Assembly (NCBI GenBank): GCA_028338895.1
Contig: JAOLAV010000006.1
Coordinates: 1 to 46,710, forward strand
From: Fidelibacterota bacterium
GTDB taxonomy: Bacteria > Fidelibacterota > Marinisomatia > Marinisomatales > UBA1611
DNA: 46,710 bases
Direction of reading: 5' to 3'
The position numbers and the translations under genes were made by a program. Below are positions 4,923-46,710 of the stretch, piece by piece. Each line of letters opens with the position of its first letter. Positions within the stretch are counted from its first letter, which is position 1. Below the pieces are notes generated by a model. It worked only from the letters and a program-made list of their open reading frames with translations, had not been told where the DNA came from and did no database searches.

Positions 4923-7268
4923 ATGAATAATAAAATAAAAAAAGTTGCCGTTTTAGGATCAGGTGTCATGGGTGCACAAATTGCAGGACACATAAGTAAC
5001 GCTGGTATAGAAAGTTATCTTTATGACACAACTCAAGAACTAGCAAATCAAGGAAAAGAGAATCTCTTAAAATTAAAACCAGCGCCATTATACAATTCTA
5101 AGAATATCGATTTAATTACTCCATGCACATATGATAAAGATATTGAAAAAATTAAAGATGTAGATTGGATTCTAGAAGCGGTAGTGGAGAAATTAGATAT
5201 TAAAATTTCAGTTTATAATAACTTACTCCCTCACCTGAAAGAATCCGCAATTTTGACTTCAAATACCTCAGGAATTCCTCTTATTGATCTCACTGAGTCG
5301 CTTTCAAAAAATATGCAAGAACGTTTTATGATTACACATTTTTTTAATCCGCCAAGATACATGCAACTTCTAGAATTAGTCAGAAGTGAAATGACAACCG
5401 ATGAAACATACAATACAATGGTTCATTTTGGAGAAACAATTCTAGGCAAAGGTATTGTCCATGCTAAGGACACACCTAATTTTATTGGTAATAGAATAGG
5501 TGTATTTGGAATGATGACCGCAATAAATCTAGCGGTAGAAAGTAGACTAACTGTAGAAGAAGTTGATAAGCTTACGGGTCCAATCTCTGGCCGTCCAAAA
5601 AGTGCTACTTTCCGTACCGCTGATGTTGTGGGTTTAGATACCTTAAAAAATGTTTCTCTTACTACCTATGAAAAAGCTCATAATGATGAACAAAGAAATG
5701 TATTTAAAATCCCAAAAATACTCGATGCATTAATTGAGAAAAAACGATTAGGCCAAAAAACAAAAGAAGGATTTTATAAAAAAGACGAAAATGGAATACT
5801 GAACTCTATTAATTTCGAAACTGAATCTTATAAGCCGTTAAAGACTGTTCGCTTTGATTGCTTTCGTGTTGCTAAAGGACAGCAAAAAACTCCAGGAAAG
5901 CTGACATCACTTTGTTCAGGTGATGATAAGGGGAGTAAGTACTTTTGGGAGGTTATGGCCAGAACACTCATATATAGTGCAAATAGAATTCCAGAAATTT
6001 CAGATGATATAATAAATATTGATAATGCAATGAAATGGGGGTTTGGTTGGGAGTATGGCCCATTTGAAAGTTGGGATATTTTAGGAGTCAAAGAATCCTC
6101 TGAGAGGATGATTGCTGATGGTAAAAAAGTACCAGATTGGGTCTTAAGGATGCTTTCTAAAGGAAGAGAAACATTTTATGAAAGTAATGCCGGTTTTTCA
6201 ACCTACTGGTGCCCAATTAATTCCATATCAAAAACTGTTCAAACAAATGAAAAAATAATTAATCTAAAAATCCATAAAACTGGAAATAAGACTATTAAAA
6301 GAGATCTAAGTGCCAGCTTGAATGATTTAGGAGATGGTATTTTAAACGTAGAGTTCCATTCTATTTTACAACCGACTTTACATCCGATCGATAGCTCATA
6401 TATTGAGATTATAAATAATGGTCTAGACCTCATTGAGAAGGGAACTTATAAGGGAATGGTTATTGGACATCAGGGAGCTAACTTCTGTGCTGGAGCTAAT
6501 TTGAACCTTCTTTTGGAGTTAAGTATTAATGAAGAATGGGATGCTCTAAATTTTGCCGTAAAAACAATGCAAGATGTAACGCAACGAATACGATTTTCAA
6601 AAGGTCCTGTTGTGGCGGCACCTTTCCAGCTAACCCTGGGAGGTGGTGTTGAAATTATTCAACCAGCAACACATATAGTTGCAGCATCAGAGACCTACAT
6701 GGGCTTAGTTGAAGTTGGTGTGGGATTAATTCCTGGTGGAAGTGGAAACTTACGAATGGTTTTAAATGCTCTAGATGAGAATACTGGAAGGATGGGTGCA
6801 TTTCAAAAAATACAGAAGGCATTTGAAACAGTGGGATTTGCTAAAATCGCAACAAGCGCGGAAGAGGCTAAAAAACTTGGCTATTTGAAAAAAGATGATA
6901 CAATTATATTAAATAAAGATCATTTAATTCACACCGCCAAAATGAAAGCTCTTGAATTAGTCGAAGACTATAAAGTTCCTACTTATAGAAATGACTTAAG
7001 GTTACCAGGGAAAGGTGGTCGAACAGCCTTAAACATGGCACTGAAGGGCTTTAAAATGCAGGGGAAAATCTCTGCTCACGATCTAAAAATTGGAGAAAAA
7101 TTAGCTTATGTTTTAACTGGTGGAGATAAAGCCGGATTAACAAAATCGGTTGATGAACAATATATCCTTGATCTAGAGCGTGATGCATTTGTTACATTAG
7201 CCGGCGAGCCATTAACTCAAGACAGAATTAAATATATGCTTAAAAAAGGAAAACCCTTACGCAATTAG
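4923..7268 (+). CDS. fadN: 3-hydroxyacyl-CoA dehydrogenase / enoyl-CoA hydratase fusion
   Basis: Bifunctional beta-oxidation enzyme of 781 aa with the dehydrogenase first, as in Bacillus FadN (789 aa) and opposite to E. coli FadB. The Rossmann motif is LGSGVMGAQIAG (11-22). The dehydrogenase His-Glu pair is His139 (ITHFFNPP) and Glu151, with the usual 12-residue spacing. A crotonase fold occupies roughly residues 460-690. It shows the oxyanion segment GANFCAGANL and the motif LGGGVEIIQPATH, then GLVEVGVGLIPGGSG with both expected glutamates. It is the last gene of the operon. Its stop overlaps by four bases the stop of the convergent LolA-like gene. Confidence 0.93.
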   Translation: MNNKIKKVAVLGSGVMGAQIAGHISNAGIESYLYDTTQELANQGKENLLKLKPAPLYNSKNIDLITPCTYDKDIEKIKDVDWILEAVVEKLDIKISVYNNLLPHLKESAILTSNTSGIPLIDLTESLSKNMQERFMITHFFNPPRYMQLLELVRSEMTTDETYNTMVHFGETILGKGIVHAKDTPNFIGNRIGVFGMMTAINLAVESRLTVEEVDKLTGPISGRPKSATFRTADVVGLDTLKNVSLTTYEKAHNDEQRNVFKIPKILDALIEKKRLGQKTKEGFYKKDENGILNSINFETESYKPLKTVRFDCFRVAKGQQKTPGKLTSLCSGDDKGSKYFWEVMARTLIYSANRIPEISDDIINIDNAMKWGFGWEYGPFESWDILGVKESSERMIADGKKVPDWVLRMLSKGRETFYESNAGFSTYWCPINSISKTVQTNEKIINLKIHKTGNKTIKRDLSASLNDLGDGILNVEFHSILQPTLHPIDSSYIEIINNGLDLIEKGTYKGMVIGHQGANFCAGANLNLLLELSINEEWDALNFAVKTMQDVTQRIRFSKGPVVAAPFQLTLGGGVEIIQPATHIVAASETYMGLVEVGVGLIPGGSGNLRMVLNALDENTGRMGAFQKIQKAFETVGFAKIATSAEEAKKLGYLKKDDTIILNKDHLIHTAKMKALELVEDYKVPTYRNDLRLPGKGGRTALNMALKGFKMQGKISAHDLKIGEKLAYVLTGGDKAGLTKSVDEQYILDLERDAFVTLAGEPLTQDRIKYMLKKGKPLRN

Positions 7269-8017
7269 TCAAAAGGAATACGCTTTAAGTTTTTCTCTTT
7301 AAATAAGTCTTCGCCTAAATTTTGATTTAACATTATATCCGTAAACTTTATTCGAGTAGAATGATTTTTCTGGATATTTTTAACATAGACCTCTTTAATT
7401 AAATCATATTTTTTAATCTGTGTATATACAAATTCTTTCTCTTTATAAATTTTTCCCTTAAGATCGTAAGAAATTTCTTTTACAATGTTAAAGGTCTTTT
7501 TATCAACCCAGGATAAATGTTTTTCGTAAGCCGAGCTAACTTTTCTTTTGGGCGAAATTTCTATTACAAAATGATCTTTTCCGTCGAGAATTTGATCTTC
7601 TAACCTTTCATATTTATTATTATCTAAAACTCTGCTCGAAAGATCTTCATAGCTTAAATCAGATCCCATAAATGCATCATTTTTCTTCTTTGAAGTTATT
7701 CGCCTAATTTTTTTGAAAGCTGGCAGCCACATTTTCATTTCATCATCCTTTCCAATATGTTCAATTTTTAGAAAAGAGACACCTTTATCATCTTTTGGTT
7801 CTAGAAACCAAATCATCTGCTTTCTATTTCCATCAATGGATTTTGATTTCATCACATGAGATCTAATTTTGTTTTTAGTACTAATTAATTGCATGTGCAT
7901 TGTGTTTGATAAATCCTCTGGATTACTTTTCTGGTAAACCTGTCGCGCAATCTCATAACCAGTTTGGCCTACCAATAAGTAGTGTAATAAAAAAAAGAGA
8001 GTTGAGACTTTCATCAT
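7265..8017 (-). CDS. LolA-like periplasmic lipid carrier, module 1
   Basis: Exported 250-aa protein of the outer-membrane-lipoprotein-sorting (LolA-like, PF17131-type) family. These are periplasmic half-barrel carriers paired with RND/MMPL exporters. It has a signal peptide (MMKVSTLFFLLHYLLVGQTG). Family-like segments include RKQMIWFLEPKDDKGVSFL, MWLPAFKKIRRITSKKKN and DLSYEDLSSR. The start lies 2 bases after the RND stop, so it is translationally coupled; a second ATG one codon later is equally possible. It is likely to take a hydrophobic substrate from the exporter toward the outer membrane. The substrate is unknown. Confidence 0.8.
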   Translation of the reverse strand: MMKVSTLFFLLHYLLVGQTGYEIARQVYQKSNPEDLSNTMHMQLISTKNKIRSHVMKSKSIDGNRKQMIWFLEPKDDKGVSFLKIEHIGKDDEMKMWLPAFKKIRRITSKKKNDAFMGSDLSYEDLSSRVLDNNKYERLEDQILDGKDHFVIEISPKRKVSSAYEKHLSWVDKKTFNIVKEISYDLKGKIYKEKEFVYTQIKKYDLIKEVYVKNIQKNHSTRIKFTDIMLNQNLGEDLFKEKNLKRIPFD

Positions 8018-27628: not shown

Positions 27629-29572
27629 ATGAAAAATATTCTTTGGCAACCATCTAAATCAAAAAAAACTCACGTCAAAAGCCTGATGGAAAAAATAAAT
27701 GTCGAAAATAATATAAATATTATAGAGTATAACCAATTATATAATTGGTCGGTATCAAATCCAGAAAAATTTTGGGAAGTAGTCTGGCAATATACTGATA
27801 TCATATACTCCAAGCCTTTTAATTCTATCGTGGATGATATAACAAAAATGCCTGGAGCAGAGTGGTTTCCTGGTGCACGTTTAAACTTTGCTGAGAATTT
27901 ACTAAAGTATAAAGACGATAGAGCTGCAATTTTTTTTAAAGGTGAGAATAAACAAACGGTAACACTTTCCTACAAAGAATTATATGGACAAGTTGAATCA
28001 CTAGCATCTTCAATGAGAAAAATAGGAATTGTAAAAGGTGACCGTGTGGTTGGTTACATCCCAAATATTCCAGAGGCGATCATTGCCATGTTAGCAACAT
28101 CTTCTATTGGCGCAATTTGGAGTTCTACATCTCCTGACTTTGGTGTAAAAGGTACCTTGGATCGTTTTACTCAAATTAAACCAAAACTTATTTTTGCTAC
28201 AAATGGATACTCTTATAATGGTAAATTTCATGATACGCTAGAAAAGCTGGATAAGATAGCCAAAAAACTGACTAGTTTAAAGAAGGTAGTTATTATAAAC
28301 CATTATCAAAAAAGCGAAAATACTTATGTAATAAAAGACTCTATTAACTATAATTATTTTATAAATAAACACCCAGAGCAACTTATATTTGAACAACTAC
28401 CATTTAACTACCCTCTTTACATTCTTTATTCATCGGGTACAACAGGTCTTCCAAAATCCATTGTTCATTCTGCTGGAGGAACATTAATTCAACACCTAAA
28501 AGAGCTCTATTTTCATTGTGATTTACATAGAGAAGACCGCATTTTTTACTTCACAACATGTGGATGGATGATGTGGAACTGGCTTGTTTCTAGTTTAGCT
28601 ATTGGGTCTAGTATTGTTTTGTATGAAGGATCTCCTTTTTATCCAAACAAGAAGATAATGTGGAATATGATAGATGAGCTTGAAATCTCTATCTTTGGTA
28701 CGAGTGCTAAATTCATTGAATCCTGTAAAGATTTTGGACTAAAGCCAAAAGACATCGCTTCTCTTCATTCATTGCGAACAATTCTATCTACTGGATCACC
28801 ATTAATTGAAGAATGCTTTGACTATGTTTATGATGAGATAAAAGAAGATGTACTTCTAGGATCTATTTCTGGTGGAACAGACATTATATCCTGTTTCGCT
28901 CTTTCAAGCCCCATACTACCGGTTATACGCGGAGAGTTACAATGCCGTGGACTAGGTATGGATGTGAAAGCTTATAATACTGATGGGCAGAGTGTTCTCG
29001 AAGAGAAAGGTGAACTTGTTTGCATAAAGGCATTCCCTTCTATGCCCATATATTTTTGGAATGACCCCAATGGTTCAAAATATAAAAAAGCCTACTTTCA
29101 AATCTTTTCAAATATTTGGTGTCATGGAGATCTTATTTCTATTTCAGAGCATGGAGGGTTAAAAATTTATGGAAGAAGCGATACAACTCTTAACCCTGGA
29201 GGTGTCCGAATTGGTACTGCTGAAATCTACAGAGTACTATCCTCTTTGAACTACATTAAAGATAGTATTGTTATTGGCCAACGATGGAATTCAGATCAAC
29301 GGATCGTTTTATTTATACAAATGAAAAAAGGAATAGTTTTAAAAGATCAACAAAGAGACGAGATTCAATCTACAATTATAACACAGTGTTCTCGTAGACA
29401 TAAGCCGGATATTATATTGCAAGTATCAGCTATACCATATACTATAAACGGTAAAAAAGTTGAACTAGCCGTAAAACAGATTATTGAAAATGAACCTATT
29501 GTAAATATTGAAGCAATTAAAGACCCTCAAGTACTAAAAGACTTTAAAGATCTACCAGAATTGAAGATCTAG
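27629..29572 (+). CDS. aacS: acetoacetyl-CoA synthetase
   Basis: Activates acetoacetate with ATP and CoA. The 647-aa product is an acyl-adenylate-forming enzyme of the AacS subfamily. Family motifs are [17 protein letters not shown] (76-92), the P-loop [15 protein letters not shown], and [19 protein letters not shown]. The adenylate motif is [17 protein letters not shown] and the C-terminal lysine site is [10 protein letters not shown]. It would feed ketone bodies or products of polyhydroxybutyrate breakdown into acetoacetyl-CoA. It is encoded alone, convergent with the GAPDH pair, and its stop overlaps theirs by four bases. Confidence 0.93.
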
Positions 29573-30570
29573 TCTAGATTGTGTAGAACACTTAGCAAAT
29601 CTGCGACTCTATTAGAGTATCCCCATTCATTATCATACCAGTTTAAAGTTTTTACGTAATTACCACCGATCACCCTTGTAAATGGAGCATCAAAAATAGA
29701 TGAATGTGGATTACCAATAATATCTGTTGAAACAACTGGAAGCGTTGAGTATTCTAGGACATTTTTTAAAGGACCCGATTCTGAAGCATTTCTCACTACT
29801 TCATTTATTTGATCAACCGTAACATCTTTTTCTAGACGAATATTAAAGTCAACAACTGATCCATCTGGCACAGGAACTCTCATCGCAATACCATCAAGTT
29901 TTCCTTCAAGCTCAGGTAAAACTTTACCAACAGCTTTTGCTGCACCTGTAGTTGTGGGAATCACATTTTCAGCGGCAGCACGACTTCGTCTCCAATCAGA
30001 ATGGGGAACATCTGCAAGGCGTTGGTCATTAGTGTAAGCATGAATTGTATTGATCACTCCAAGCTCAATACCAAACTCATCATTTAAGACTTTAGCCATA
30101 GGAGCAAGACAATTCGTCGTACAAGATGCATTTGAAACAATTTTATGCTCAGGCTTTAATCCATCATCATTCACACCTAAAACAACAGTATAATCAATTT
30201 CATCTTTTGCTGGTACCGTAAGTATAACCCTCTTTGCACCGGCTTTTAAATGACTTTCTAATTGTGATTTTAGACGAAAAATACCCGTTGATTCAATAAC
30301 AATATCAACTCCTAATTCACCCCAAGGTAAAGCCTCAGGATCTCTTTCAGCAATAAGTTTAACTTGCTGACTCTCTGTCTTCAGAATATCACCTTCTAGA
30401 GTTACTGCTTCAGGAAACCGTCCCATAACAGTATCATATTTTAGAAGGTATGTTAATGCTCCTTTATCAAAGATATCATTAATTGCAACAACATCTACAC
30501 CAGGCTTTGAGTTTAAAATACGAAAAACCGAACGGCCAATACGTCCGAAACCATTAATTGCTACTTTCAC
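29569..30570 (-). CDS. gap: glyceraldehyde-3-phosphate dehydrogenase (catalytically complete copy)
   Basis: Phosphorylating NAD-dependent GAPDH of 333 aa. The nucleotide fold starts INGFGRIGR. The active site is intact: Cys150 in SNASCTTNC and His177 in [10 protein letters not shown]. The phosphate-site segment [20 protein letters not shown] is conserved, as is the C-terminal [12 protein letters not shown]. Its ATG overlaps by four bases (ATGA) the stop of the upstream GAPDH-like gene, so both are translated from one message. It acts in glycolysis and gluconeogenesis together with the aldolase and PPi-PFK encoded nearby. Confidence 0.96.
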
Positions 30571-31583
30571 GATTTTTTCTCCAATTCTACATAAGCATTA
30601 ATTACATCTAAAATTCTTTTAGAAAAGCCCCATCCGTTATCATACCAACAGAGTGTTTTTAGAAGAGCATCTTTTGTTATCATCGTTGCCTTCTCATCGA
30701 AGACCATTGTTTCTTCACGGCCACGAACATCACTGGAGACAATTGGATCATCTGTGTATCCAACTATACCTCTTAAAGATTTTTCAGAATACTCTTTAAT
30801 CGCTTGATTGGCTTCTTCAACGGTTGGAATATTTTTTAGCTCTGTTGTAAGGTCAACACAAGAACCATTAGGCACGGGTACATTAAAAGCAATACCATCT
30901 AATTTCCCTTTAAACTTCGGCATAATTTCTTCAACAATAGAAGGTGCAAGTGTAGAATTAGGAATAATATTTTCAACAGCAGAACGACTCCTTCTCAAAT
31001 CAATACCTGCTGCATCAGCAAGTGGTTGATCTGCCGTGTACGCATGTACTGTTGTCATCATGGCTCTCTCTAGTCCAAAACATTCATCCAGCATTTTAAC
31101 CATTAACGCAAGTACTTGAGTCGTGGACGAGGTCGTAGAAATAATTTTATCGGAAAGTTTAATACTCGAGTCATTAATCCCTGGTATCACATATCTATCT
31201 ATAGTTTCTTCTGGATTTCTAGTCGTAAAAACTTTTTTTGCACCAGATTTAAGATGTAGTGCAAGATCTTCTTTCTTTAAGAAACGACCTGTTGCATCAA
31301 TTACAATATCTGCGTCATAAATATCCCACGGTATTGTACCTGGTTGCCCACCACTTATTACCCGTACTTTTTGATCTTTAACCTTTAGATAGTTACCATC
31401 TATGGTAACCTCATCCTTCATTTTACCATGGATTGAATCTCTGACGAGTAAATAATGGAGAGCTTCAAGAGACCCAAAGTCGCTTATCGCGACAAAATTA
31501 TATTTTGGATTATCATATCCGAGACGGAAAATATTCCGACCAATTCTTCCAAAACCAAATAGAGCAATATTAACTTTTTTCAT
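30567..31583 (-). CDS. GAPDH paralog lacking the catalytic cysteine
   Basis: 338-aa protein with full GAPDH fold: nucleotide motif [12 protein letters not shown], His180 in [27 protein letters not shown], and C-terminal [12 protein letters not shown]. The catalytic cysteine position is Ser153: the usual SNASCTTNC reads STTSSTTQV, encoded by TCC at 31125-31127, so no single-base sequencing error restores the whole motif. The phosphate-site TTTG is also changed to NSTL. It cannot perform normal thiohemiacetal chemistry. Possible roles are an erythrose-phosphate or non-phosphorylating variant, or a regulatory subunit of the downstream GAPDH. The gene is clearly maintained, with no frameshift. 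Confidence 0.85.
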
Positions 31584-33416: not shown

Positions 33417-34433
33417 CTACTTCCAAATTAAAATTTTACTTTTTGGTAGATATTCAGACAATAACTCTTCTAGCTTTTCTAAAGATTCTGTTCTCTCTTT
33501 TTTACCAATAGAAACCACCCCATCTTTTATTTCATAATTATCATAAAATAATGTTGAAGTGGGTTCTCTTTTTTTAATTCTTTTGTAAAAATCTTTATTC
33601 ATTCTAAAAACACCCAACGTTACATCGCGAACTTTAGAAGGATTTATTTCTCGAAAGACTTCATGTAAAAATTGGCTATAAATCTCAAACCAACCATCAA
33701 ATAAAATAATGGGGTCAAAACATAATCTTACAGCCCATCCAGCCTCCACTGCTTCCTTTGCTGATTTAAGCCGACTGTTAAAGGGAGGTGCCGTGGATTC
33801 AAATTCTTCTGCAATTTTTTCTGGAGAGAGTGTCCAACTAAGCAGTACATTTTCGTGAGGAATCATTTTTTTTATCAACGAAAAAAGAGCACTTTTTGTT
33901 CGTATTTCAATGAGTAATTTTTTTTGGGTTTTTACAAAATCAATCCAACGAGATGCCATTGGAATTATATTTTCCATGGCCATGATATCAGTATTATAGG
34001 ATATAGATACAACCATAGGATCTAATGTGAGGTTTAAAGATGCCATTTTTATCTTAATTGCATCCATGAAATCAGATTCATTAACAAATACAACCATATT
34101 CCCGGAGCTATACATTCCTTGTAAAAAGCAATAATCACAATTATATAAACAATTTAGAATTGGAGTGTTATAATAAACATTTGGGGTCCCAAACTCTTGT
34201 ACCATTTCTGAAGCCGGATATAAAAAGGGTTCTGTTTTTTTTGCCAGAATCAGTTTCATAGATTTTTTTTGAACCTGAAAATCTTGCCCGGTCCTATTAA
34301 AAATATCTTTATAATGATCAACCTCAATAACTTTTGATTTTGAGAACTTTTTGAGTGCAATCTGCGACAATGGGTAGTCGAGAGCTCCTCTTTCTACATA
34401 AATATGTGAAAAATTAGGCTGAAAGTATTTCAC
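33417..34433 (-). CDS. SPL-like radical SAM protein
   Basis: 338-aa radical SAM enzyme of the spore-photoproduct-lyase family. The 4Fe-4S motif is Cys95, Cys99, Cys102 in ILNCLYNCDYCFLQG (CxxxCxxC). Flanking family segments are TPNVYYNTPILN, ISYNTDIMAMENIIP, LLIEIRTKSALF and LSWTLSPEKIAEEFE. In Bacillus SPL a cysteine about 46 residues after the cluster donates hydrogen; here that place reads SISYNTD, with no cysteine. So repair of the spore photoproduct is doubtful, and the organism does not look like a spore former. It overlaps by 20 bases a nucleosidase-like gene upstream. Confidence 0.85.
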   Translation of the reverse strand: MKYFQPNFSHIYVERGALDYPLSQIALKKFSKSKVIEVDHYKDIFNRTGQDFQVQKKSMKLILAKKTEPFLYPASEMVQEFGTPNVYYNTPILNCLYNCDYCFLQGMYSSGNMVVFVNESDFMDAIKIKMASLNLTLDPMVVSISYNTDIMAMENIIPMASRWIDFVKTQKKLLIEIRTKSALFSLIKKMIPHENVLLSWTLSPEKIAEEFESTAPPFNSRLKSAKEAVEAGWAVRLCFDPIILFDGWFEIYSQFLHEVFREINPSKVRDVTLGVFRMNKDFYKRIKKREPTSTLFYDNYEIKDGVVSIGKKERTESLEKLEELLSEYLPKSKILIWK

Positions 34434-37049: not shown

Positions 37050-37742
37050 TTAATAAGGTAATGGTTTCATTCTTCTAAAAATCAAATAAAAGAGTAGAAT
37101 ATGCCCTAATCCAAGAATTTCAAAACCAAGTATATACCAAGGCCAAGATCCAATAATCATAGGGCTATTGACAATTGGCTTAGAGCATAGGAACATGTAG
37201 TTTGAACCCAATAAAAAATTTAATGATCCAATAAAAATTAATAATAATTGGCAATAAATAAAAACTCCACGCCAAGCAAATTTTTCAATTCTATACCCAT
37301 CAACTACAGCTAGATAAACTGGTACTAGAATAATTCCTCCATGACCTATGTAGTATTCAATCACTTGTGGTAATTCACCACCATGGTTTAATTGGGGGGT
37401 TAATAATGCGTGGATTGCTCCAGGTAGTCCTATGAGAGCTAAAAACTCAAAACCTTTTTGGTGTGTTTTAAAAAGCATCAATCCAGATAAAATCGCTGCT
37501 AGACCACATAGATGTAGTGGTAGAGAAGTCTCTATTTCCCAAGCTTCAATTTGAAAAATATACCAACTTTTCCAGAGCTCTCGACTAATCATAATAATAC
37601 CTAGACTTATTGACAATAACCTCCTCTTCTCCGGAGGGATACGAATTGCAAGTTGAATAATCAGAAGACCAATACAAAAAGGTATTAATATTCCGAACCA
37701 CCAGGTTATTGTTAATGGTACAATATCAATTGCTAAGTTCAT
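37050..37742 (-). CDS. YwaF/TIGR02206-type integral membrane protein
   Basis: 230 aa with six or seven membrane helices. The family pattern is clear: SLPLHLCGLAAILSGLML, GLPGAIHALLTPQL, YYIGHGGIILVPVYL, LNFLLGSNYMFLCSKP and WPWYILGFEIL. The conserved histidines lie in or near the membrane. The function of the family is not known. It is on the same strand as the large surface protein at 37751, with an 8-base gap. Confidence 0.8.
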   Translation of the reverse strand: MNLAIDIVPLTITWWFGILIPFCIGLLIIQLAIRIPPEKRRLLSISLGIIMISRELWKSWYIFQIEAWEIETSLPLHLCGLAAILSGLMLFKTHQKGFEFLALIGLPGAIHALLTPQLNHGGELPQVIEYYIGHGGIILVPVYLAVVDGYRIEKFAWRGVFIYCQLLLIFIGSLNFLLGSNYMFLCSKPIVNSPMIIGSWPWYILGFEILGLGHILLFYLIFRRMKPLPY

Positions 37743-45046: not shown

Positions 45047-46384
45047 TTAATCTTTTTCTGAACCGACCCAAATAAAGCCATCTTTTTCTTTTATTTTATA
45101 AATATCAAGGGGGATTTTTTCCATTTGGTTTATTTCTTTTGCCTCTGCATTTAGACCAACTTTACCTAATAGTTTTTGAAAGTTACTTATTTTAAGCCAC
45201 TCCCGAACCTCACCTGTTTTATAGCAGAACTCACTTTTATGCCATCTGCAAGCAATTGTCTCATCTTCAATATCAATATCGCTTCCCTGCAAGCTCAGAA
45301 AAGCATGTGGACATTTATCATTTAAAGCATAAAATTTCTCGTCAATTTTAACAATAAGTATGTCTTCTCTTTTGATTTTAAAGACTTGCTGAGGCTGCTT
45401 TTCATAGGTTTCAACAGCAGAGCATTTATTCCAAACTAAATCACCATCTATAAATTCATCATCGAGGCTTTCATTATTTGAAAAATTAATATCCTCAATC
45501 TCGTATAAAGTGACTCGACCTTCTATACCAGGCAAATTAGTCCTCATGAAATCTTTTACAACCAATGAATCTTTAATCTCGCTGTGAACTGCCTCAGAAA
45601 TAAGCAGTCGTGAATCAAATTGTTTATTTGCCGATTCAACGCGACTTGCAAAGTTCATCGAGTCACCAATTGCAGTTAATCGCTTTGAGATTCCAGCGCC
45701 AATATCCCCGACAACAGCTTCGCCCCAATGAATACCTATCCCTATATCAAAATCTTGTCCATACATCGTTTTAAGATAAGGTTTCATATCATCCATTTCA
45801 TCGCACATATTGAGAGCGGCTTTCACAGCGGAATGAACCGGATTTGGTTCGTCATACAAACCAAAAAGAGCTACCATTCCATCTCCAATATAATTATCTA
45901 CTTTCCCATGGTTACTTTCGACTGACTTTACCATTCTTGTAAAATATCGGTTAAGAATAAAAACGACATCGTAAGGAGTTAATTTTTCAGAAAAAGGAGT
46001 AAAACCTCTAATATCACTAAATAAAATTGCGATTTTTTTTGTTTCGCCTAGCCTTCCAGAAACACTTCTTTCAGAGACTGATTCTATATCCTCTTTATTT
46101 AGGACTAATCTTCGGACAGTAACATCGCCAGTAATTTTTGTTTGACAAGCTAATCTAAATTCATCCGTAGTATGGATTTTTTCTTTTAATTCTTTTTCTT
46201 TTTCAGTCTCGGGTGTACAATTATCCATTCCATCTAAAACCAAGAGTCGGCAGGTCGTACACTTCCCTTCCCCTCCACATGCATTCACATGTGGCAATCC
46301 ATTTCTCATAGCCGTTTGGAGTATTGTTTCTCCGACTTCTGTTTCAAACTTTTTATTATCTGGTAAAAAATCTATATTAGGCAT
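45047..46384 (-). CDS. ferredoxin - class III adenylate/guanylate cyclase - Rieske fusion
   Basis: 445 aa, cytoplasmic. The plant-type [2Fe-2S] ferredoxin domain is at 1-95 with Cys36, Cys42, Cys45 (ACGGEGKCTTC) and Cys80. The class III cyclase domain is at about 113-298. Metal aspartates are Asp124 (LFSDIRGFT) and Asp168 (YIGDGMVALFG); transition-state Asn244 and Arg248 are in SMNFASRVES. The usual adenine-selecting lysine is Asn164 and the second selector is Thr. The C-terminal Rieske domain (about 315-445) has Cys358/His360 and Cys379/His382. It is likely a cyclic-nucleotide synthase governed by cluster redox state. Purine choice is not certain. Confidence 0.9.
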   Translation of the reverse strand: MPNIDFLPDNKKFETEVGETILQTAMRNGLPHVNACGGEGKCTTCRLLVLDGMDNCTPETEKEKELKEKIHTTDEFRLACQTKITGDVTVRRLVLNKEDIESVSERSVSGRLGETKKIAILFSDIRGFTPFSEKLTPYDVVFILNRYFTRMVKSVESNHGKVDNYIGDGMVALFGLYDEPNPVHSAVKAALNMCDEMDDMKPYLKTMYGQDFDIGIGIHWGEAVVGDIGAGISKRLTAIGDSMNFASRVESANKQFDSRLLISEAVHSEIKDSLVVKDFMRTNLPGIEGRVTLYEIEDINFSNNESLDDEFIDGDLVWNKCSAVETYEKQPQQVFKIKREDILIVKIDEKFYALNDKCPHAFLSLQGSDIDIEDETIACRWHKSEFCYKTGEVREWLKISNFQKLLGKVGLNAEAKEINQMEKIPLDIYKIKEKDGFIWVGSEKD

Positions 46385-46399
46385 AAACGTAAGTTAACA

Positions 46400-46710
46400 T
46401 TAAAAAATGTTTTTCATATTTTGAAATGACTTGAACTCTAGCATATTCCCGCTAGGATCTTCAATGAAAAAAGTTGCCTGCTCGCCAGGTTGATTTTTAA
46501 ATCTTATTTTTGGTTTTATATAGAATCTTATTTCTTTCTGCTCTAGTTTTTGACAAAGGCTGATCCATTCTTCCATTGGTAGAATTATGCCAAAATGCCT
46601 TGTAGGGATCTCATTATTATCTACCGTATTTGTTTTAAATAAGCGACAATCATCTGGTGATAAGTGCGCAACTATTTGATGACCATAAAAATTAAAATCT
46701 ATCCATTGAT
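46400..46710 (-). CDS. VOC-family (glyoxalase-fold) protein, C-terminal part
   Basis: The last 102 residues of a vicinal-oxygen-chelate fold protein, cut by the window edge. A metal-type histidine is in FYGHQIVAHLSPDD, and the family-typical end is FIEDPSGNMLEFKSF with the ligand glutamate. Residues between include TRHFGIILPMEEW, likely the second ligand histidine. It could be a glyoxalase-like isomerase, dioxygenase or resistance protein. It ends 15 bases before the cyclase fusion start, which suggests one operon. Confidence 0.8.
   Translation of the reverse strand, partial: QWIDFNFYGHQIVAHLSPDDCRLFKTNTVDNNEIPTRHFGIILPMEEWISLCQKLEQKEIRFYIKPKIRFKNQPGEQATFFIEDPSGNMLEFKSFQNMKNIF

Follow-up and report, generated by a model that had tools for sequence, protein, structure and literature searches.

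The window analysed here is an entire contig of 46,710 nucleotides from a Fidelibacterota bacterium (genome 1.18 Mb, 55% complete). It encodes what appears to be a nucleotide cyclase held between two iron-sulfur domains in a single chain, raising the question of whether such a fusion is authentic and, if so, to what the cyclase is coupled. The initial annotation placed a [2Fe-2S] ferredoxin (Fer2), a class III cyclase and a Rieske centre in one frame of 445 residues. This reading holds, as all three domains score above their Pfam cut-offs: Fer2 with E 2.6e-10 (40.5 bits against 21), Guanylate_cyc (PF00211) with E 2.6e-20 (73.2 bits against 21.9) and Rieske with E 4.4e-12 (46.2 bits against 20.3). 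The frame is unbroken on the minus strand, with its stop codon within 45047-46384, and the plus strand there is riddled with stops. The fusion protein stays below the cut-off of every NCBIfam model and is therefore covered by no named family in that collection. The features of the locus are listed in Table 1.

Table 1. Fusion gene, its parts and its immediate neighbours (positions in the window; residues numbered in the fusion protein)
Feature	Position	Strand	Evidence or remarks
Fer2-cyclase-Rieske fusion gene, 445 aa	45047..46384	-	ATG-start open frame; Fer2, Guanylate_cyc and Rieske each exceed the gathering cut-off; full-length homologues, 18 more in Fidelibacterota
[2Fe-2S] ferredoxin (Fer2) domain, residues 10-85	46130..46357	-	Pfam; ligands C36, C42, C45, C80
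Fer2-to-cyclase junction, residues 86-113	46046..46129	-	RRLxLxxxD (R91, R92, L93, L95, D99), invariant columns in alignments
Class III nucleotide cyclase domain, residues 114-295	45500..46045	-	Pfam, key residues, Foldseek
Variable linker, residues 296-317	45434..45499	-	pLDDT < 50 at 303-307; 0-41% identity over 300-316
Rieske [2Fe-2S] domain core, residues 318-396	45197..45433	-	C358-x-H360 ... C379-xx-H382; no bc1-type disulfide cysteines
Two-helix insert in Rieske domain, about residues 397-427	45104..45196	-	Model helices 401-408, 413-420; sequence comparison
Free Rieske protein, 147 aa	44528..44971	-	75 nt downstream of fusion; Pfam Rieske E 7.5e-14
Glyoxalase/VOC-superfamily gene	46400..46708	-	Cut by contig end; ends 15 nt upstream of fusion

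Domains of the fusion protein

An AlphaFold2 model of the monomer without cofactors contains three folded domains (mean pLDDT 86, pTM 0.70) and is weakest in both linkers and in the helical insert of the Rieske domain; a short helix (residues 97-104) lies within the Fer2-cyclase junction. Conservation is generally highest in the cyclase and lowest in the Rieske domain. All three domains are under purifying selection, with dN/dS of about 0-0.12 where calculable between Fidelibacterota pairs, values at very small dS being unreliable. Across an alignment of 82 proteins, the four Fer2 cysteines, D124 and D168 are conserved in all rows, N244 and R248 in all non-truncated rows, and the Rieske ligands wherever a Rieske domain is present, bar one residue masked as X.

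The four cysteines of the Fer2 domain had been taken for a plant-type cluster motif. All four are present, but the type is another. Their spacing, Cx5Cx2Cx34C, is that of adrenodoxin and ISC ferredoxins as opposed to the plant-type Cx4Cx2C, and the top ferredoxin matches of the domain are E. coli Fdx (1i7h) and TIGR02007 (fdx_isc), the latter at 47.8 bits, below its equivalog cut-off of 132.1. A plant-type ferredoxin is ruled out by this spacing and these matches. A fifth, non-ligand cysteine of the Fer2 domain, Cys56 (46217-46219), is invariant in the Rieske-bearing alignment set A2 and missing from several of the peroxidase-type and bare-core relatives described below.

The full Rieske CxH/CxxH pair (C358/H360 and C379/H382) is present as first described, in the form CPHAFL ... 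CRWH, whereas bc1-like proteins of the same phylum (L143-L145) have CTHLGC...CPCH. A high-potential Rieske domain of the bc1/b6f kind is ruled out by absence of the disulfide cysteine pair (CTHxxC ... CPCH). Dioxygenase ferredoxins (BphF, CarAc, HcaC) are nearest to the fused domain, which is presumably of the low-potential type. Its two-helix insert is common to the neighbouring free Rieske protein and was not seen in the alphaproteobacterial fusions.

By sequence, the catalytic domain is a class III nucleotide cyclase with predicted activity. Foldseek places it with 1wc3 (E 1.6e-16), 2w01 and 3r5g at target-normalised TM-scores of 0.84-0.89. The metal-binding (D124, D168) and transition-state (N244, R248) residues are intact, bearing out the earlier description of them as complete. 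The substrate positions are T237 and N164, the latter a lysine in S. platensis CyaC; the lysine that marks an ATP-specific adenylate cyclase at the adenine-selecting position is thus asparagine here. This lysine-to-asparagine change, singled out by the initial annotation, is real but has little bearing on the product, since proteins of this architecture have K, N, S or L at position 164 and even Mesorhizobium orthologues differ there. Residue 164 therefore does not fix the product, and the assignment of a guanylate cyclase from this substitution is unsupported. The asparagine might nonetheless abolish use of ATP, making the protein either a guanylate cyclase or a cyclase-like regulator devoid of catalysis. 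We consider this very improbable, as no full-length fusion has lost any metal or transition-state residue and K, N, S and L alternate at position 164 even between those Mesorhizobium orthologues. M. tuberculosis Rv1900c, an active adenylate cyclase, also has asparagine at this position, which counts against such a reading. The product is probably cAMP, possibly with a relaxed ATP/GTP preference, and the earlier advice that it be measured is sound.

Distribution and modular relatives

A sample of 61 genomes of relatives yielded 18 further full-length homologues, 17 of which were aligned and are 57-82% identical to the protein; the close homologues carry the names Candidatus Marinimicrobia or Neomarinimicrobiota (= Fidelibacterota). 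The fusion is present in 19 of 245 genomes of the phylum, nearly all of one family. Further homologues, about 38-41% identical, come from single-cell genomes, rhizobial chromosomes and a plasmid, so that the architecture spans Fidelibacterota, Rhizobiales, Rhodobacterales, SAR116, SAR324 and one Chloroflexi genome. Full-length homologues in other genomes indicate that the fusion is neither a chance product nor a mis-join. An assembly chimera or frameshift artefact is ruled out by recurrence of the same fusion in many independent assemblies, in single-cell genomes and in cultured isolates, and a single-genome oddity by its frequency within the phylum and its relatives in others.

With one genome scanned per GTDB species, 422 relatives were obtained, of which the best 80 loci were retained. 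These, less three fragments and with the window protein and two plasmid proteins added, gave 80 classified proteins. The Fer2-cyclase-Rieske order occurs in 67 of them (49 plain, 18 with N-terminal CDGSH repeats), in a sample biased by its seeds, which were two cyclase peptides, and in which some marine bins are possibly mis-assigned. A possible example of such mis-assignment is the protein of G172 (TMED198), identical to that of L058 and 98.6% identical to that of L057, an alphaproteobacterial single-cell genome. The rarity first implied for a Rieske-capped fusion was thus mistaken. Many genomes carry the combination of Fer2, Guanylate_cyc and Rieske domains for which a search had been suggested as a check, and biochemical evidence was found for no soluble member. 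In the literature on cyclases joined to Rieske, CDGSH, Fer2 or peroxidase domains, no such fusion was found beyond the 6TM-ferredoxin class, and as far as that literature shows the architecture is undescribed.

All relatives share the Fer2-cyclase unit and differ in the outer module. Besides the C-terminal Rieske type, there are proteins with two or four N-terminal CDGSH (mitoNEET) repeats and a C-terminal Rieske domain (L057, L059, L069), with two C-terminal CDGSH repeats replacing the Rieske domain (L099, L101), with a C-terminal class I haem peroxidase (L105, L107, L108, L117), and with a C-terminal reductase (NAD-binding in L111 and L113, an FAD domain being detected in L111). Bare Fer2-cyclase cores also occur (L102, L109, L110). 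The most elaborate chains, L069:7527-9290 and L059:7434-9278, join four CDGSH repeats, Fer2, cyclase and Rieske, and are predicted to hold as many as six [2Fe-2S] clusters, of three different kinds. The peroxidase in L105:8001-9638, L107, L108 (Leptospiraceae) and in L117:4296-5993 (Actinomycetota) is ascorbate-peroxidase-like. In L105 the distal Arg/His and the proximal His align with those of ascorbate peroxidase, and retention of these residues suggests a possible peroxide-to-cyclic-nucleotide sensor. Where the module is a reductase (L111:7947-9722, L113:7995-9599), the cyclase lies between Fer2 and the C-terminal reductase in an otherwise NqrF/BenC-like order, as might befit a sensor of NAD(P)H.

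In a tree of the core, for which the 6TM-Fer2-cyclase type was chosen as outgroup, the Rieske-type proteins of Fidelibacterota and Proteobacteria fall in one starred clade of 48 rows. Nested within this clade is the C-terminal-CDGSH type, a pattern suggesting that CDGSH took the place of Rieske. A second starred clade unites the peroxidase- and reductase-bearing proteins with one bare core. The deep order of the tree is uncertain because several branches are long. The fusion looks like a member of the redox-regulated Fer2 class III cyclases, in which the new element would be a constant Fer2-cyclase core with interchangeable redox modules. For a modular redox-to-second-messenger superfamily, whose core exchanges electrons with a plug-in module (Rieske, two to four CDGSH, haem peroxidase or flavin reductase), the case is in our view evenly balanced. 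If it is correct, different bacteria read the ferredoxin pool, peroxide, NAD(P)H or quinone through one shared cyclase switch, and some members hold three kinds of [2Fe-2S] cluster, up to six in all, in a single signalling chain.

Gene neighbourhood and proposed mechanism

The free Rieske protein is 37% identical to the fused Rieske domain and groups with the fused domains of Fidelibacterota. Together with the shared two-helix insert, this grouping shows that the free Rieske proteins are paralogues of the fused domain. A free Rieske gene also neighbours the fusion in nine other loci, and in the window it is likely to be on the same transcript. No free Rieske gene adjoins a paralogous group of fusions at about 62% identity (e.g. 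L047, L053, L054), which indicates that it is not an obligatory partner for all fusions. Fourteen further loci (cluster 2) have the glyoxalase-superfamily gene at the same place and in the same orientation, and a full-length copy (L049:7571-7987) matches Glyoxalase with E 2.2e-07. The recurrent order in Fidelibacterota, on one strand, is a glyoxalase-superfamily gene, the fusion, one or two free Rieske genes and then conserved secreted or unknown proteins. No gene context common to several phyla was found: only Fidelibacterota have the glyoxalase/Rieske neighbourhood, and none is shared with the alphaproteobacterial loci.

Elsewhere in the window are two tandem, non-identical glyceraldehyde-3-phosphate dehydrogenase genes (29569-31583, minus strand) and a gene of the spore-photoproduct-lyase family (33417-34433; PF20903, E 5.8e-22), in a marine genome where spores are not to be expected. 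A membrane protein of the TMEM164 family, which is named after a eukaryotic protein, is encoded at 37050-37742 (E 2.9e-42).

On a plasmid of R. etli 8C-3 (L036:80-5686 and 5989-7383), the Fer2-cyclase-Rieske gene adjoins an apparent aromatic-ring dioxygenase, its Fer2 reductase, a dehydrogenase and a transporter; downstream catabolic steps also appear in this context, all gene identities there being by reading only. The Rieske domain, and Fer2 with it, might thus be an electron carrier serving a Rieske-type oxygenase, with the cyclase reporting flux. Both this locus and the closeness of the fused domain to the dioxygenase ferredoxins would suit such a carrier. It is nevertheless an unlikely explanation, as no oxygenase was seen near the fusion in Fidelibacterota or at the remaining alphaproteobacterial loci examined. 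A role in aromatic degradation was rejected, just the one R. etli locus having such a context.

We instead favour, as rather more probable than otherwise, a soluble redox-controlled class III cyclase in which the ISC-type Fer2 domain is the switch and the Rieske domain an electron input or outlet, the clusters, partner and product being predicted. The invariance of the Fer2-cyclase unit and its short junction makes Fer2 the likely switch; the outer module, because it varies and always has an electron-transfer or redox function, is the likely input. Electron transfer from outer module to Fer2 is made plausible by the reductase type, which keeps the NqrF/BenC-like order with the cyclase inserted. 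The initial annotation had the two flanking clusters report the balance between two redox pools. Redox control of the cyclase is very likely and finds good support in the relatives. The two-pool reading fits the family less well because the Fer2-cyclase unit is constant and the Rieske domain, attached through a poorly conserved linker, is swapped elsewhere for CDGSH, peroxidase or reductase modules.

In the proposed mechanism, Fer2 would act as the redox switch, tied to the catalytic N-terminus by the short conserved junction, whose RRLxLxxxD motif is the putative transducer. The reduction state of Fer2 would alter the cyclase homodimer and hence its output. On its flexible linker, the Rieske domain would pass electrons between the Fer2 cluster and a cellular electron pool, as input or as outlet; this version would link Fer2 to a pool that free Rieske ferredoxins serve, and in the present bacterium the free Rieske protein next door is a possible electron partner. 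The cyclic-nucleotide product would be read by the cNMP-binding proteins of the cell. The genome itself encodes three such proteins; CRP-type regulators are present in relatives, and no CRP-type HTH was found in this genome at 55% completeness. Cluster occupancy, inter-domain electron transfer, direction of regulation, partner and product are what we infer for this scheme.

Assembly and destruction of one or both [2Fe-2S] clusters, as opposed to electron flow between the domains, could itself be the signal, the apo or holo state reporting iron supply, O2, NO or peroxide. ISC-type Fer2 clusters and solvent-accessible Rieske and CDGSH clusters can be labile, which counts in favour of such a cluster-integrity sensor, and the repeated extra CDGSH modules of relatives could raise its sensitivity. 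The swaps of the outer module for peroxidase or reductase, however, suit electron transfer and not cluster loss, and CyaC, the membrane relative, responds to the redox state of quinone (PMC10463352). We therefore regard sensing of cluster integrity as a minority possibility beside a redox-controlled switch.

Few systems have been shown by experiment to couple electron balance to a cyclic-nucleotide signal, and among them S. meliloti CyaC is the clear case of the ferredoxin-cyclase type. A soluble family with exchangeable redox modules, found both in ocean lineages that are uncultured and in Mesorhizobium, Ensifer, Leisingera and Stappia, which can be cultured, would allow one cyclase switch to be tested against defined inputs. 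Such a family would show whether the redox state of Fer2 alone gates a class III cyclase, and its haem-peroxidase and flavin-reductase versions would be direct converters of peroxide and NAD(P)H into cyclic nucleotide.

Comparison with known systems

By analogy, the fusion probably works like a CyaC-type enzyme. Purified CyaC is reported in a 2019 paper to contain a binuclear iron-sulfur cluster. The 6TM-Fer2-cyclase layout occurs in P0002 (R. leguminosarum), in L118 and beside the fusion in L057. The last is one of several loci, some of them alphaproteobacterial (L057, 4989-6683 and 7734-9278; L058; L059; G172 C1), in which two redox cyclases are adjacent: a 6TM-Fer2-cyclase is encoded about 1 kb upstream of, and on the same strand as, a CDGSH-Fer2-cyclase-Rieske protein. 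Thirty class IIIb cyclases have been described in which the ferredoxin follows a haem-type 6TM anchor, with four membrane histidines coordinating haem, and precedes the catalytic domain (PMC4821796, eLife 2016), and S. meliloti CyaC responds to the redox state of ubiquinone (PMC10463352). The fusion shares with S. meliloti CyaC and the '6TM-haem b-ferredoxin-cyclase' group (cluster 1 of the eLife 2016 study) a Fer2 domain directly ahead of the class III catalytic domain. This core is homologous in the two, that group serving as outgroup of the core tree, and redox-controlled output is experimental for CyaC. CyaC types have a 6TM di-haem-b anchor, whereas the fusion has no membrane part and carries a C-terminal Rieske domain instead. 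Its chain opens with Fer2 strand 1, and neither sequence nor model has room for, or sign of, a six-helix anchor with four haem histidines. For want of this membrane haem anchor, the fusion is not itself of the CyaC type.

Arthrospira (S. platensis) CyaC, Synechocystis Cya2 and P. aeruginosa CyaB (1wc3, 2w01, 3r5g) have the same class III fold with the same metal and transition-state residues, but these solved catalytic domains are without Fer2 or Rieske, and the adenine-selecting site is lysine in 1wc0 and asparagine (N164) in the fusion. ISC/adrenodoxin-type ferredoxins (E. coli Fdx, 1i7h; TIGR02007) have the same Cx5Cx2CxnC spacing; unlike them, the Fer2 domain here is part of a fusion and lies below the TIGR02007 equivalog cut-off. 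Finally, the Rieske ferredoxins of aromatic dioxygenases (BphF, 2e4p/1fqt; CarAc, 1vck) share the CxH...CxxH motif and likewise have no disulfide pair, whereas the fused Rieske domain is joined to a cyclase and bears a two-helix insert near its C-terminus.
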